DNA of 33,531 bases, from positions 1 to 33,531 of the IMG/VR virus record IMGVR_UViG_3300030419_007235; one strand, given 5' to 3'. The DNA comes from a virus. A program made the position numbers and the translations under genes. This document shows positions 9,086-33,138 of the stretch, piece after piece; the stretch's first letter is position 1, and each line of letters opens with the position of its first letter. Under the pieces are notes generated by a model, which saw nothing but the letters and a program-made list of their open reading frames with translations, had not been told where the DNA came from and did not search any database.

Positions 9086-9087
9086 AA

Positions 9088-9096
9088 CTATTTATA
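9088..9096 (+). promoter_or_regulatory. CTATTTATA element at a gene start
   Basis: CTATTTATA lies within a 14-base junction between the exonuclease stop and the ATG at 9100, which has no Shine-Dalgarno sequence. The same nine bases recur at 26353 and 33130. Reading the opposite strand it is TATAAATAG, the T4 late promoter core. Confidence 0.35.
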
Positions 9097-9099
9097 AAC

Positions 9100-9936
9100 A
9101 TGCGACTATTTAAACACTGGGCGAGAACATTTCAAAAATCAGAAGACTTTACTCCTGACGCGGAAATGCTCGTTAGTAATTTAAAAAATTATTTAAAAGA
9201 AGAGGTTGACCCTGAATCTGTTGATTTATCGAGTTTTGAGTTTCATGATCAGCTTGATCAAGACTTCTGGAACCAACCTGATGACAAGTTAGATCCAGAG
9301 ATACGTGAAAAACTGCTTGTAATTGCCGGGGATTTTTGGGATTCGCTTGAAGTGGGAGATGCAGAGTACGAAGATATTACATTCACGGGATCATTAGCAG
9401 CACATAATTATTCGCAGTTTTCTGATGTGGACCTTCATATTCTCGTAGACTTTTCCGATGTTGACGACAAAACTGAATTGGTTCGCGAATATTTTAATGC
9501 AATGAAGTCAATATGGAATCGACTTCATGACATTCTTATCAAGGGATATGAAGTTGAAATTTATGTTCAAGATGTCAACGATCCCCATGAAGCACAAGGT
9601 CTTTATTCTGTTCTTAATAACGAATGGCTTAAAAAACCAGTTCTAGATAAGCAAGATTTTGACCGCGACAACGTGCAAAAAAAAGCAGCAGGGCTCATGG
9701 ATCAAATTGATCGCGTCGAGGGGCTTCTTGATGACGGCAAATACGAAGAAGCGGAAAAATACGCCAACAAATTAAAACAAAAGATTAGAAAAATGAGAAA
9801 AACAGGTCTCGAAACAATTGGTGCTTATTCTGTAGAAAATCTTGCATTTAAGGTACTCAGACGAACAGATTACCTTGGAAAACTATCAGATGCCAAAAAC
9901 AAGGCATATGATTCGCTGCTCTCTATCAAGCAATAA
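9100..9936 (+). CDS. Nucleotidyltransferase-fold protein
   Basis: 278 residues. FTGSLAAHNYSQFSDVDLHILVDF (about 95-118) is the Pol-beta-superfamily nucleotidyltransferase signature: G97-S98 followed by D109-x-D111. VEIYVQD at about residue 150 supplies the third acidic position. The C-terminal part (about 195-278) is helical and charged. In this superfamily members transfer nucleotides to proteins, RNA or small molecules; the substrate here cannot be told. Proteins of this type recur in aquatic phages without known role. It has no Shine-Dalgarno site and is preceded by the CTATTTATA element instead, unlike its replication neighbours, which may mean a different expression class. Confidence 0.75.
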   Translation: MRLFKHWARTFQKSEDFTPDAEMLVSNLKNYLKEEVDPESVDLSSFEFHDQLDQDFWNQPDDKLDPEIREKLLVIAGDFWDSLEVGDAEYEDITFTGSLAAHNYSQFSDVDLHILVDFSDVDDKTELVREYFNAMKSIWNRLHDILIKGYEVEIYVQDVNDPHEAQGLYSVLNNEWLKKPVLDKQDFDRDNVQKKAAGLMDQIDRVEGLLDDGKYEEAEKYANKLKQKIRKMRKTGLETIGAYSVENLAFKVLRRTDYLGKLSDAKNKAYDSLLSIKQ

Positions 9937-22407: not shown

Positions 22408-23013
22408 ATGAGTAAAAAGAAAATTTTATCAGAAGCACAGGTTCGCCGCTTTCAAGGTCTTGCTGGCATTCCTGCGCTTGGAGAGACGACAATTCCCACA
22501 GTGGCACTCTCCGAAATTGGTGAGGGTGAAAACGTCTTTGACCGTGAGGAAGACGATCCACCCGAGCTTCCTGGCGACGAAGGCCCAGAAGATGAATTAG
22601 AAATGGGTGTGGACTTGGAACCTTCCGATGAAGGAGGTGAATTAGATTTAAGTCCAGAACAAAAAGAAGATCTCGCTGCCGATATCGTCCGTGCAGTTGC
22701 TCAAGAGCTTTCTGTAGCCCTTGAGCTTGAGGAGCCAATTGCAGTAGATGCCCCTGGTGAAGAAGAGATGGATCTGGACGTGGGTGACGAAGAATTAGAA
22801 TTAGACATGGGGCAAGAAGAGCTTCCGCCCGAAGAGGAGGAGCCTGCCATGGCGATGAGATCGTATGGAGGGGCTGACCTTGAAGAAGCCGAAGAAGCGG
22901 AAGAGGGCAAACTTGAAGAGTCAGACGAAGATCTCACAGAGGTTGCCGATGATGAAGCTCTTGTCAACGAAGTGCTCCGACGAGTCGTTGCACGTCTTTC
23001 AAAAAAGCAATAA
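22408..23013 (+). CDS. Highly acidic protein of unknown function
   Basis: 201 residues, of which roughly a third are Asp or Glu, concentrated in residues 38-180. It starts with a short basic and helical region (MSKKKILSEAQVRRFQGLAGI) and ends with a basic helix (VNEVLRRVVARLSKKQ). No membrane segment. Phage proteins of this build include scaffold or core proteins, DNA mimics and packaged proteins; nothing decides between them. Its + strand is strongly purine-rich through the Glu/Asp repeats. A strong AGGAG site and a perfect palindromic terminator after it suggest a self-contained transcription unit. Confidence 0.7.
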   Translation: MSKKKILSEAQVRRFQGLAGIPALGETTIPTVALSEIGEGENVFDREEDDPPELPGDEGPEDELEMGVDLEPSDEGGELDLSPEQKEDLAADIVRAVAQELSVALELEEPIAVDAPGEEEMDLDVGDEELELDMGQEELPPEEEEPAMAMRSYGGADLEEAEEAEEGKLEESDEDLTEVADDEALVNEVLRRVVARLSKKQ

Positions 23014-23096: not shown

Positions 23097-23486
23097 ATGA
23101 ATTCGTTTCTTTGGTTTATTTTGGGGTTCGCATTTTGTCGTATCATGCAAAATCTGTACATAATTGGAAAAATTTCTATTTTTATGAGAAAAGCAGCAGA
23201 GGATGCTCTGAAGCTTCTTGGCACTGCTGCCGAAGATATCGCATATATTCGTCAATTAAAACACCAAACTGTAGAAAAATACGGCGATTCAGAACAATTG
23301 AAAATAATTAAGAATACAGATGATCATGTTTTCAATTCTTGGAAACGTTCCGCTGTGGAGAATTTTAAAAGAAATTTTCCTGAACCCTATAACAAGGCTA
23401 TTGAGTTTAAAAACTGGGATGAGGCGATGGAAGTTTTAGACAGGATTCACAAGTCAGAGCTTGAGAGAACAAATGTTACTAAATGA
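23097..23486 (+). CDS. Small membrane-anchored helical protein
   Basis: 129 residues. The N-terminal 30 residues (NSFLWFILGFAFCRIMQNLYIIGKISIF) form a hydrophobic segment, followed by a charged helical domain (RKAAEDALKLLGTAAEDIAYIRQLKHQTVEKYG onwards) with no recognised family. The layout suggests an inner-membrane anchor with a cytoplasmic domain. GAGG precedes ATG 23097. It overlaps the following kinase-like gene by about 14 bases. Confidence 0.6.
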   Translation: MNSFLWFILGFAFCRIMQNLYIIGKISIFMRKAAEDALKLLGTAAEDIAYIRQLKHQTVEKYGDSEQLKIIKNTDDHVFNSWKRSAVENFKRNFPEPYNKAIEFKNWDEAMEVLDRIHKSELERTNVTK

Positions 23487-24687
23487 ACTTAGAAAATTAA
23501 TTAATCAAATCAGGCTTGAAGAGGCTCTTGAAAAGGGTGTCAAGGAAGTCAAACATCCTTTCAAAGCAGTTTTTATCTTTGGGCCCGCAGGTGCAGGTAA
23601 GACTACGACCAAAGACTTTCTTGGATTGCCAGATGAATTTGTCCCTTTAACATCAGATGACGCTATTGAAAAAGTGTTTCCCAAATTTGGTATCTCGCTA
23701 GATTTTCGAGAGGAGTATCCTAAAAAAACAGAAATTAGAAAGCTTCTTCAACAAAGGACTTCTGAAAAGACAATAAGAAAAGTAAACCAGATGCTTCCTC
23801 TCTTTTTTGACACCACGGGAGAAAATGTTTCAAAACTTATTAAAATCATGGATGCTCTGGAAAGAGTTGGATACGATATTGCGGTTTTTCAAATAAACGT
23901 GCCACCGGATGTATCTATTGCAGCAGATTTGGGCAGGGATCGCACCTTGGGTTCAGAAATCATACAATCTATTTCTAACGATTATCAGAGGGACGTGGCT
24001 AAAGGCGCTGCCTATCTTAATCAACTTGGTAGACGAGGGGTGACACTTTTATCCAATTCTATTTATCCAAACATTTTTCATTTTGCAAAACCAGGCACAC
24101 TTCGACCGGGAGTTCCAAAAGATATTCTGTGGCAAGGAAAGTTGAAGTTAAACGATCCAGAGGGAAAAGCAGATCCGACATACATTGACAACCCGTTTTA
24201 TGGAGCATCGGAAAAAGAAAATGCCAAAATTCTTAACGATGCTAAAAAAGTTGCACAAGAATGGATTTCGGACAGAAACCCTAAAAACCCTATCGGAAGA
24301 GTGGTTTTAAATGCGCTGTCATATATCCAGTCTCAGGGTGTTGCCGACTTGGGAGATCAAATGTCAGACATTGCCAAATACATAGTGTGGGCAACTGAGA
24401 ACGGTAAGCCAGTCCCACCTGTCGTCAATGAAGCATCGAAAGCGCTTTTTGATCTTGAGGCAAAACTGAGAAAAACAACTCCGGCTCCCAAAAAGCCCGG
24501 AAAAGATGTCACAGCCAAAAGCGTAAAAGGAGTCGATGGACCCGTTCCCGCCTCTCTTCTGCCAACCTATGCCGATCCAGCGACACCAATTAAAAGCCCT
24601 GCTGATATACTTTATAAAGATAAGCCCTTAAAGCTAAGAGAGTTAAGAGATTTTGTTAGCCAGTTCAATAAAAAAAATAAACCTTGA
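23473..24687 (+). CDS. P-loop kinase-like protein (zeta-toxin-like) with a candidate capsid-targeting leader
   Basis: 404 residues from ATG 23473 (an in-frame TTG at 23461 is less likely). Walker A GPAGAGKT spans 37-44, and FFDTTGEN (about 111-118) and DLGRDRTLGSEII (about 150-162) follow the order of zeta-toxin and related small-molecule kinases. After about residue 220 the sequence is unfamiliar, with a Pro/Lys linker near 335-350 and a basic C-terminus. Residues 1-17 form an amphipathic helix ending L15-E16-E17-A18, which fits the T4 prohead-protease consensus (Leu/Ile)-x-Glu before Ala/Gly. Such leaders target internal head proteins. So it may be packaged and injected; substrate unknown. 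It overlaps the upstream membrane-protein gene. Confidence 0.65.
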   Translation: MLLNELRKLINQIRLEEALEKGVKEVKHPFKAVFIFGPAGAGKTTTKDFLGLPDEFVPLTSDDAIEKVFPKFGISLDFREEYPKKTEIRKLLQQRTSEKTIRKVNQMLPLFFDTTGENVSKLIKIMDALERVGYDIAVFQINVPPDVSIAADLGRDRTLGSEIIQSISNDYQRDVAKGAAYLNQLGRRGVTLLSNSIYPNIFHFAKPGTLRPGVPKDILWQGKLKLNDPEGKADPTYIDNPFYGASEKENAKILNDAKKVAQEWISDRNPKNPIGRVVLNALSYIQSQGVADLGDQMSDIAKYIVWATENGKPVPPVVNEASKALFDLEAKLRKTTPAPKKPGKDVTAKSVKGVDGPVPASLLPTYADPATPIKSPADILYKDKPLKLRELRDFVSQFNKKNKP

Positions 24688-24737: not shown

Positions 24738-25046
24738 ATGAAAGCTTGGGCGTGGAGACGTGAAACTGACAATAACAAAGCAAACTATTGTCTTCAAGTG
24801 GAGAATATCAAGGGCAAAAGAGCATTAAACAAGGTTGTTAAGATACTTGGTGATTGGGAGATCATCGGTGATGGGTTTAATTCCAAAACCGAAGAGTACA
24901 CGATGATTTTTTCAACGGATTTTGATAATTCACACAAATGGCAAGCTTGGGCTGAAAAGTTTCCTATTTATTTGGTTGAGCTAACATCACATGGAAACGA
25001 AAAATTACGAAACAAAAAGCTTGTAAAAGCGGGGGCAGTATTATGA
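24738..25046 (+). CDS. Small protein of unknown function
   Basis: 102 residues, Trp/Lys-rich, alternating predicted strands and helices. No family recognised, no membrane segment. It has a strong AAGGAG site and its own consensus promoter, and overlaps the ClpP-like gene by 4 bases (ATGA), so the two are made together. A role as partner or substrate adaptor of the ClpP-like protein is possible but only positional. Confidence 0.6.
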   Translation: MKAWAWRRETDNNKANYCLQVENIKGKRALNKVVKILGDWEIIGDGFNSKTEEYTMIFSTDFDNSHKWQAWAEKFPIYLVELTSHGNEKLRNKKLVKAGAVL

Positions 25047-25702
25047 TTTTTGTACCAAAAATGGCCGCGAAGAAAAAAGAGGAAGAACAGGTAGATGCAG
25101 AAAAGATCGAGCCGGTTCATATCGTAGAAAAAAAAGATGACACACCTCGTATCATGGGGATTTGTGGCGATCTTGATGAGGAAAAAGCCGGAGAGCTAAT
25201 GTATGGCATGATTGCGCTATACGAAAGTGGCACTAGTTATGCCTTAAAAGACCCTAAAGATGAAAACTCTGATATTTTGGTTTCATACGAGCCATTTGAA
25301 TTTATTATTTCCACTCTCGGTGGAAACGCGCAAGAAATGTTTAGCCTTCACGATCTTATGCGCGTTCTTAGGGAAAATTGCGACATCCATACCGTGGGTC
25401 TCGGTAAGGTGTTCTCAGCAGGTACGCTCTTGTTAGCGTCTGGAAGCAAAGGGAAGCGCAGGATTGGTAAGAATTGTCGTGTCATGATCCACAGTGTTCT
25501 CGGTGGAAATCACGGCTCTCTTCACAATCTTGAAAACGAGATGGATGAAATTCGTTGGACCCAAGATCGCTATATTGAGGCGATGGTTGAGGAGACTAAT
25601 ATGACAAAAGCTCATCTCAAGAAGATTCTTAACCGAAAGGTTAATGCCTACTTTACCGCAGAGGAGGCAATAGAACTCGGTATTGCGGATATTATATTTT
25701 AA
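25043..25702 (+). CDS. ClpP-like serine protease (S14 family), catalytic Asp apparently replaced
   Basis: 219 residues. FEFIISTLGGNAQEMFSLHDLMR (86-108) is the ClpP oxyanion/handle region, GKVFSAGTLLLASG holds the nucleophile S125, and VMIHSVLGG holds H150. In the E. coli alignment the catalytic Asp before FLSAPEA falls on N201 (RKVNAYFTAEEA), so the triad looks like Ser-His-Asn. A Lys/Glu-rich N-terminal extension of about 35 residues is not standard. S14 proteins in phages can be head-maturation proteases or degrade host proteins; without a ClpX partner here, either is possible. ATG 25043 overlaps the upstream gene; an in-frame ATG at 25061 is an alternative start. Confidence 0.85.
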   Translation: MIFVPKMAAKKKEEEQVDAEKIEPVHIVEKKDDTPRIMGICGDLDEEKAGELMYGMIALYESGTSYALKDPKDENSDILVSYEPFEFIISTLGGNAQEMFSLHDLMRVLRENCDIHTVGLGKVFSAGTLLLASGSKGKRRIGKNCRVMIHSVLGGNHGSLHNLENEMDEIRWTQDRYIEAMVEETNMTKAHLKKILNRKVNAYFTAEEAIELGIADIIF

Positions 25703-26352: not shown

Positions 26353-26361
26353 ACTATTTAT
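26353..26361 (+). promoter_or_regulatory. CTATTTATA element at a gene start
   Basis: CTATTTATA fills the 16-base junction between the stop at 26350 and ATG 26367. No Shine-Dalgarno sequence is present. It is a second exact copy of the element at 9088. Confidence 0.35.
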
Positions 26362-26366
26362 ATATT

Positions 26367-27581
26367 ATGAACCAGCTTGACTTATTAGTAGAAAATTACT
26401 TCACCGAATCTTTTGAGACCTCCGATCTTCTTCGGCTGGTTGAACAGGTGATGGAAGAGCAGCCGAACCAGTCACTAACGGCATGTGAGCAGGCAAAGCC
26501 CAAGGAAGCGGGAAAGAGGTTTGAATGGGTGGTGGTATATAAAGCGCGGGAAAGAGCCAAAGCTGCCCCACTTTCCGATGATAAATACATGTGTGCCGCA
26601 AACAGTTGGGCTCAACAACCATATCCCAAGGAAGATTCAGGGGTTACACTCGGAGACCTTGCTGACAAGGCTATAGATAAGGCTCTGGAATCTGGGGCAA
26701 TAACAATGAAAGATCTTGCACAAGCAGACATGCAAAGAATGGGCGAGCAAAACCCTTTCAATGACGAAAATAGAAAAGCAATCGAAATAAAGACAGATAT
26801 TGTATTTGGAGACAAAACTATTTCCGTAAAGCTATCGGGAGATGTCCAAGGGCAGAGCAGCGAAGCATTTAGCACAGTTCAGCAAATGAACAATGTGTTT
26901 ACAGAAGTCTTTGACAATTGGGAAGCCATAAATAAGAAGATTGACGAAAAAGTGTTAGAGCAGGTAAAGAAAGATTTAGAAAAGACCTTCGCTAAAATGA
27001 AAAGAATTGGGAAACAGGCTCGCCTTACGCCATCAAGGGTTAAGACACTTGTGCTGAAGGATCTGAAAAGTTCAGAGCCAAAGAAGAGGGCAAAAGCTAA
27101 AAAGAGATACGATGCACTCCTCGCCGCCCAAATTATTGACCAACAAGGTGAAATTCTCGTACAAGCATTGAATCAGGCTACATGGGAGGAAAATCATAGA
27201 CAATATATGAACGATGCAATAAACAAGCTGCTAGATTTTGATGAAGATCTGCGACGAACACTCACTGATGAAGTTCTCACAGGACGCAGAATGTTTGCAC
27301 ACGCGCCAGGAGCAGCATCAGAATATATATTATCTCCAGAACACTTCTTTGTGTTGGCTCCAGAGGTTAAAGGATACAGCAATTCTATTGACATCTTTTC
27401 CAAAGCCATGAAAGTGGATGTAAGACCTAAGAGCGGTAGGAGAATTGAAGGTACAACTATTGGCGTAAAGCCAGCTTACAGATTTGACCTTAAGAGAAAA
27501 GCCGTAGGAGAGGCAATAGAATACTTTGCAGCCTTAAAGAAAGCTAATGAAGCAGAGCAAGCAGCGCTTGGCTTAAAATAA
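26367..27581 (+). CDS. Large unknown protein, helical, possible virion-associated
   Basis: 404 residues from ATG 26367; an upstream in-frame ATG at 26295 overlaps the preceding gene and is rejected. The N-terminus (MNQLDLLVENYFTES...LLRLVEQVMEEQ) is an amphipathic helical leader. A Lys/Glu-rich helical middle (about 180-300) follows, then VLTGRRMFAHAPGAASEYIL (about 317-336), a motif I associate with uncharacterised aquatic T4-like phage proteins, and a C-terminal alpha/beta part. No enzymatic motif is visible. Lack of a Shine-Dalgarno site and the CTATTTATA element suggest a late class gene. Function unknown. Confidence 0.65.
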   Translation: MNQLDLLVENYFTESFETSDLLRLVEQVMEEQPNQSLTACEQAKPKEAGKRFEWVVVYKARERAKAAPLSDDKYMCAANSWAQQPYPKEDSGVTLGDLADKAIDKALESGAITMKDLAQADMQRMGEQNPFNDENRKAIEIKTDIVFGDKTISVKLSGDVQGQSSEAFSTVQQMNNVFTEVFDNWEAINKKIDEKVLEQVKKDLEKTFAKMKRIGKQARLTPSRVKTLVLKDLKSSEPKKRAKAKKRYDALLAAQIIDQQGEILVQALNQATWEENHRQYMNDAINKLLDFDEDLRRTLTDEVLTGRRMFAHAPGAASEYILSPEHFFVLAPEVKGYSNSIDIFSKAMKVDVRPKSGRRIEGTTIGVKPAYRFDLKRKAVGEAIEYFAALKKANEAEQAALGLK

Positions 27582-27598
27582 AATAACCAGAGGTAGAA

Positions 27599-28393
27599 TT
27601 GAAATCACCACTACGCTATCCAGGCGGCAAAAGCCGTGCTGTGAAACATATACTTCCACACTTTCCAGAAGATATCCGAGAGGTGTGCTCTCCGTTCTTG
27701 GGTGGGGGCTCAATTGAGCTAGCCTTGGCTGAGAGGGGTATACAGGTTTACGGATATGACACTTTTGAGCCGTTAATTTGGTTTTGGCTTGCTCTTCTTG
27801 GAAACCCCGAGGCGTTGGCCAACGAGGCAGACTCGCTCAGAAAGTATAAAGACTACTATTATGGACACCGAGGCTTGCCCAAGGATGATTTTAATTTAAT
27901 CAAGGAAGAGATGAAAAATGAAAAAAAATACTCTCTTCAAAACGCAGCAAAGTTTTATGCCCTGAATCGTTCGTCCTTTTCAGGGGCAACTCTTAGCGGA
28001 GGATGGTCCAAGCGGGCATCTTATGAAAGGTTTACAGATTCGTCCATAGAAAGGGTGCGGCAATTCAAAGAGCCGAAGTTGTATGTTTCCGCGCAACATT
28101 TCAAGCATTCAATCCCAGCACACCCGAAAACTTTTCTATATCTTGATCCGCCTTATCTTTTGGGCAAAGATAGAGAACACCTTTATGGAAATGCGGGAGA
28201 CAAGCATAAAGGGTTTGACCACGCGGGCTTGGCAAATATACTAAAAAAAAGAGATAATTGGATTTTATCTTATAATAATTGCCCAGAGATATTGAAACTA
28301 TATGAAGGATATGATATTCTATATCCAGATTGGAAGTACGGCATGTCGTCAGATAAGAACTCCAAAGAAGTATTAATTATTAACAAGGTTTAA
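27599..28393 (+). CDS. dam: DNA adenine methyltransferase (D12 class, Dam-like)
   Basis: 264 residues with all D12-class N6-adenine methylase motifs: PLRYPGGK (4-11), SPFLGGGSIEL (31-41, SAM-binding motif I), YGYD (51-54) and catalytic motif IV DPPY (183-186). It methylates adenine in phage or host DNA, either to protect against restriction or to mark strands; the target sequence cannot be read from protein. Starts at TTG 27599 with AGAGG upstream and lies directly before groEL with a two-base gap, so both are cotranscribed. Position between the unknown large protein and a chaperonin gives no further hint. Confidence 0.93.
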   Translation: MKSPLRYPGGKSRAVKHILPHFPEDIREVCSPFLGGGSIELALAERGIQVYGYDTFEPLIWFWLALLGNPEALANEADSLRKYKDYYYGHRGLPKDDFNLIKEEMKNEKKYSLQNAAKFYALNRSSFSGATLSGGWSKRASYERFTDSSIERVRQFKEPKLYVSAQHFKHSIPAHPKTFLYLDPPYLLGKDREHLYGNAGDKHKGFDHAGLANILKKRDNWILSYNNCPEILKLYEGYDILYPDWKYGMSSDKNSKEVLIINKV

Positions 28394-33121: not shown

Positions 33122-33138
33122 AATAAATACTATTTATA
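33122..33138 (+). promoter_or_regulatory. Late-type promoter candidate overlapping an inverted AT element
   Basis: AATAAATA (33122-33129) matches the T4 late promoter core TATAAATA in seven of eight bases. ATAAATA and TATTTAT flank a single C, so the CTATTTATA element (33130-33138) is its mirror. A transcription start around 33135 would suit the ATG at 33158, with CGGAG in between. Confidence 0.4.

Follow-up and report, generated by a model that had tools for sequence, protein, structure and literature searches.

A zeta-toxin/polynucleotide-kinase-type protein of a marine T4-like phage with a candidate capsid-targeting, protease-cleaved leader

The window analysed here is a stretch of 33,531 nucleotides, IMG/VR record IMGVR_UViG_3300030419_007235, a 33.5-kb fragment of a marine T4-like phage whose genes lie on the plus strand. 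The phage group to which it belongs carries genes for a DnaE-type polymerase, UvsX, dUTPase, IMPDH, GroES/GroEL-like and ClpP-like proteins and Dam; relatives were gathered via the polymerase, yielding 13 related records. The features of the locus are given below, with an arrow marking predicted cleavage positions.

22408..23013, plus strand: acidic 201-aa protein starting MSKKKILSE↓A (open reading frame, family alignment)
23097-23486: gene 23097, 129 aa with a hydrophobic N-terminus, directly upstream of the kinase
23473..24687, plus strand: kinase gene, 404 aa (open reading frame; Pfam Zeta_toxin above cut-off; orthologues)
23473..23523, plus strand: candidate capsid-targeting leader MLLNELRKLINQIRLEE, residues 1-17, predicted cut E17↓A18 (alignment; gp21 rule, PMC9026906)
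23554..24072, plus strand: P-loop kinase core, about residues 28-200 (alignment, fold matches)
23581..23604, plus strand: Walker A motif GPAGAGKT, residues 37-44 (Pfam match, alignment)
24073..24684, plus strand: clade-specific C-terminal extension, residues 201-404, no known domain (Pfam/PHROG, alignment)
25043..25702, plus strand: ClpP-like protease, conserved in the block (Pfam CLP_protease, 1.9e-25)
26353..26362, plus strand: ACTATTTATA, late-promoter-like motif 4 bases 5' of the 26367 ATG (motif search)
26367..26459, plus strand: conserved leader of gene 26367, residues 1-31, predicted cut MEE31↓Q, also LVE9↓N (DNA comparison, HMM)
26460..27581, plus strand: exchangeable cargo of gene 26367, unrelated in the window and in the related phages L001, L017 and L032 (DNA comparison)

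The earlier note on this DNA had proposed a kinase-like gene with a P-loop and zeta-toxin-like motifs, and both points were borne out. The reading frame runs from the ATG at 23473 to the stop at 24687 and encodes 404 residues; a TTG is found 12 bases 5' of this ATG, and the orthologues begin at the ATG position. The Walker A motif is accompanied by a Pfam Zeta_toxin match (E = 8.9e-6) of 25.7 bits against a curated cut-off of 22.3, the relatives scoring 47-54 bits, and a second, weaker match is to AAA_33. The product is a P-loop kinase of the zeta-toxin/polynucleotide-kinase type. Residues K43, D62, D113, R155 and R157 are invariant, including in the homologues from phages HTVC008M and Melnitz, and because the catalytic residues are retained even at 22-25% identity the window protein is likely an active kinase. 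The C-terminal extension of about 200 residues is missing from both of these homologues.

An AlphaFold (AF2) model built from 11 sequences was poor overall (mean pLDDT 59.5). Structure comparison nevertheless matched its core to polynucleotide kinase, phosphoseryl-tRNA kinase, adenylate kinase and zeta/PezT; polynucleotide kinase was the top match (Z 10.5 over 146 residues, rmsd 3.5), with many P-loop kinases scoring Z 8-10. A search of the kinase profile against the sequences of solved structures returned nothing significant. Confidence in the N-terminal helix was low, residues 1-20 averaging pLDDT 47, and the start of the kinase core lies near residue 30.

The end of this helix had been placed at LEE-A in the earlier note, with correct numbering: MLLNELRKLINQIRLEE precedes A18 and forms a separate amphipathic N-terminal helix ending L-E-E↓A18. 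Across 11 orthologues with 46-89% identity to the window protein, L6, L9, I10, E17, A18 and L19 are invariant in 11/11, P3 is L, I or M, and P2 (position 16) is free. T4 gp21 is described as cleaving after L/I-x-E, and the propeptides of mature head proteins as 7 to 65 residues long (PMC9026906). Judged from the alignment, the fixed E17-A18 together with the free P2 fits the pattern that a gp21-type protease would impose.

The frequency of the motif was evaluated in 557 non-redundant proteins of the phage group, where [LI]xE[AG] has a background of about 1.3 per 1000 internal positions, so that about 2.5% of proteins would carry one in residues 2-21 by chance. Within the first 20 residues the motif is enriched 2.4-fold (33 observed, P = 5e-5), and in the same proteins no N-terminal enrichment was observed for [LI]xD, [LI]xK, [LI]xQ or [AV]xE. 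As [LI]xE with other following residues is likewise enriched at the N-terminus, by 1.6-fold, the signal may in part come from the composition of N-terminal helices in general, or from sites where P1' is another residue.

A search for the same leader on other genes, proposed in the earlier note, gave a divided outcome. The cleavage rule recurs on other genes, and the leader sequence itself does not detectably do so: with the HMMs of two other leader families the kinase leader reached a best E of about 0.16, in a comparison where short leaders afford little power. Membership of the common MKLTKSxLKQIIKEEL class was rejected on these grounds (HMM E 0.16 or worse), as was identity with the leader of gene 26367, to which the HMM search gave no match. 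The MKLTKSxLKQIIKEEL leader was itself observed on at least 20 different N-termini, on many genes of L117 as well as in L103, L125 and L079. In the window, the protein encoded at 9100-9936 starts MRLFKHWARTFQKSED, resembling the WRxFLxE[AS] leaders found on many unrelated genes of relatives.

A gp21-type protease was not seen in the window, a 33.5-kb fragment. Peptidase_S77, the gp21 type, is encoded in 4 of the 13 related records, the three largest included (E 6e-25 to 3e-31), and relatives also encode a Gp23 capsid protein (1.3e-72). The S77, scaffold-like and capsid proteins of these relatives have L-x-E sites near their own N-termini.

The kinase domain is also present in the cultured T4-like phages HTVC008M, Melnitz, Atu_ph07 and Cronobacter S13 and in Aeromonas phages, with the following N-termini.

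HTVC008M: MIPFILKE↓G
Melnitz: MKTFAELQE↓G
Atu_ph07: MKWNDLNE↓A
Cronobacter S13: MNFKEFCQLDE↓A
Aeromonas phages: ..LEE↓K, with K and not A/G after the site

These leaders cannot be aligned, and nearly all end in L-x-E directly before what would be the mature protein; because they differ in length as well as sequence, inheritance of an aligned segment does not by itself account for the common L-x-E. In HTVC008M and Melnitz the core has no preceding helix, just 8-9 residues ending L-x-E, and in the alignment the HTVC008M site falls four residues C-terminal to E17 of the window protein. A literature search found no virion proteomics of HTVC008M or Melnitz.

In Atu_ph07 the kinase domain sits in gp53, within CDS 31-76 (CDS counted from the record start, the DNA primase/helicase being gp70 as in PMC6102473). 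Attai et al. (PMC6102473) report a mass-spectrometric identification of 131 virion proteins, of which CDS 31-76 account for 29. A leader of the form M[KR](W/L)xxL[TNL]E is found on ten Atu_ph07 genes, gp53-gp61 and gp63, leaving out gp62. L/I-x-E occurs within residues 3-16 in 24 of 45 genes of the cluster versus 6 of 40 neighbours (P = 2.6e-4), a count in which the ten tandem genes, being paralogues, are in part a single event. The gp53-gp61 genes (L137 39484-48752) form a tandem array; their products share a W-x-x-L-[TN]-E leader, and by eye the bodies of these proteins appear ADP-ribosyltransferase-like.

Helical leaders had also been ascribed to genes 22408 and 26367, and were recognised in both, as the MSKKKILSE↓A start of the former and a conserved two-helix leader on the latter. 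The 22408 family has an N-terminal L-[LI]-x-E-[AGS]-like site throughout, and gene 22408 gave no significant Pfam or PHROG match; its product is probably a prohead-core or internal protein. Elsewhere, ClpP-like proteins starting ..SPL[LI]KE↓AKL, a possible prohead-protease site, were observed at L048 13440-14045, L083 5996-6601 and L088 6463-7068.

Gene 26367 has counterparts at L001 12929-14191, L017 14529-15989 and L032 10879-12192. Its DNA is 73-86% identical to all three up to window positions 26454-26464, past which the sequences show no relationship before about 27582-27600, close to the Dam methylase gene that follows the cargo. The first 29-32 codons are hence kept and the remainder differs in the four phages, with the junction at M-E-E31↓Q, and it is possible that this leader-cargo junction is a cleavage site. 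An HMM of other family members, with the four phages excluded, ranked the leaders of those four above nearly all other N-termini (E 2e-4 to 7e-3). The window cargo has no relatives among the viral contigs or phages searched, and is weakly matched by PHROG 22045 (4e-9). For the L017 cargo, a homologue exists in cyanophage ACG-2014f; this homologue is without such a leader and likewise lies beside a Dam gene. A D-x-x..[IV]S[LV]K-like motif was noted by eye in all four cargos. It is conceivable, though doubtful, that the 22.4-27.6 kb block constitutes a virion effector cassette, in which fixed capsid leaders and exchangeable enzymatic cargos would recombine at the prohead-protease site. Such a cassette would load the particle with the kinase and with a further, variable effector, which might be a nuclease from whose action the neighbouring Dam methylase would shield the phage.

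The motif ACTATTTATA recurs in the window at 9087-9096 and 33129-33138 and at related loci, and lies on the coding strand 5' of tail and other structural genes. It is strand-specific: matches of at least 9/10 occur at 46 of 679 genes and, when the reverse complement is used, at 3. None of the polIII (0/89), dUTPase (0/73) or IMPDH (0/74) genes has the exact core upstream. The T4 late promoter TATAAATA was also considered, and in coding orientation is nowhere matched exactly on the plus strand of the window; the enriched element is the reverse-oriented ACTATTTATA, not TATAAATA. From this distribution we infer that ACTATTTATA may be a late-promoter-like element of the phage group. A similar motif (at least 8/10) lies 21-32 bp upstream in 11 of 13 kinase loci, some of which are near-identical. 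The window's own kinase is without it, because gene 23097 lies directly upstream.

In combination, these observations are best explained by a kinase that is carried in the virion and whose leader is cleaved, which we regard as the probable situation. The N-terminal helix could instead belong to the kinase fold or to an oligomer or partner interface, with the enzyme acting in the infected cell, for example in nucleotide metabolism or RNA repair, and never in virions. The resemblance of the fold to polynucleotide kinase, tRNA kinase, adenylate kinase and zeta would agree with such a role, as would the presence of metabolic genes such as those for IMPDH and dUTPase among the neighbours; in the alignment the leader is followed by the conserved KEVKHPFKA, with no evident linker between the two, and L-x-x-E-A is equally suited to an ordinary amphipathic helix. 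However, the HTVC008M and Melnitz cores do without the helix, which in the window protein is modelled with low confidence ahead of the core, and both the protease-like pattern of an invariant E17-A18 with a free P2 and the late-promoter-like motif speak against an enzyme confined to the cell. A purely intracellular role is consequently considered unlikely, if still a serious competitor.

Expression in the cell as a zeta-type toxin, within a toxin-antitoxin or superinfection-exclusion module, is quite improbable, even though Pfam Zeta_toxin is the best curated match. No epsilon-like antitoxin partner was recognised adjoining the kinase, and PADLOC gave no significant match (E 0.025 only). Gene 23097 was rejected as an antitoxin: relatives that lack the kinase still retain it, located between their 22408 and ClpP genes, and in L001, L002 and L017 it is missing beside the kinase.

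The packaged kinase of the earlier note is thus favoured by the protease and capsid type of sister phages, the conservation of the site, the convergent leaders, the Atu_ph07 cluster and the motif at most orthologues, and disfavoured by, among other points, a leader that is not detectably common to other genes. Packaging, cleavage and ejection, together with substrate and effect, are what we infer from these comparisons. The kinase would be produced late, and its 17-residue amphipathic helix would direct it to the prohead core, the role that the capsid-targeting sequence plays for IPI-III in T4. A gp21-type S77 protease would then cut after L-x-E (E17↓A18), leaving the mature kinase free inside the head, and upon ejection along with the DNA it would phosphorylate a host target as infection begins, possibly as an early host-takeover effector. 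The interpretation in the earlier note is largely supported, and the kinase would be a cargo not previously recognised for a delivery mechanism that is itself known. If true, a kinase family of several T4-like lineages joins the repertoire of injected proteins, and L/I-x-E near the N-terminus combined with leader-cargo swaps would provide a sequence rule for predicting injected effectors in metagenomic phages.

The T4 internal proteins IPI-III share with the kinase a short N-terminal leader ending L/I-x-E before A/G, and the phage group has a gp21-type protease; the kinase leader differs in its length (17 versus 10 residues) and sequence, and its cargo is an enzyme with a 404-aa precursor. Among the T4 internal proteins, leader sequences are similar between packaged genes of the same phage, a property that is supportive and not strictly defining. 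T4 Alt is an enzyme with a short cleaved leader that is packaged and injected (PMC9026906), although Alt is an ADP-ribosyltransferase and the window protein a kinase. The zeta toxin family is characterised by UDP-N-acetylglucosamine kinase activity and a cognate epsilon-type antitoxin. Zeta toxin/PezT and bacterial polynucleotide kinase have the same type of P-loop kinase core, whereas the window kinase is without a recognised antitoxin, phosphatase or ligase partner and adds the C-terminal extension and the N-terminal leader. Atu_ph07 gp53 is a fusion in which the kinase follows a domain that we interpret as ADP-ribosyltransferase-like and that has no Pfam match, and its leader has 8 residues; the likeness of gp53-gp61 and gp63 to the present case lies in the homologous kinase domain of gp53, the leader on all ten genes and their location in a virion-protein gene cluster.
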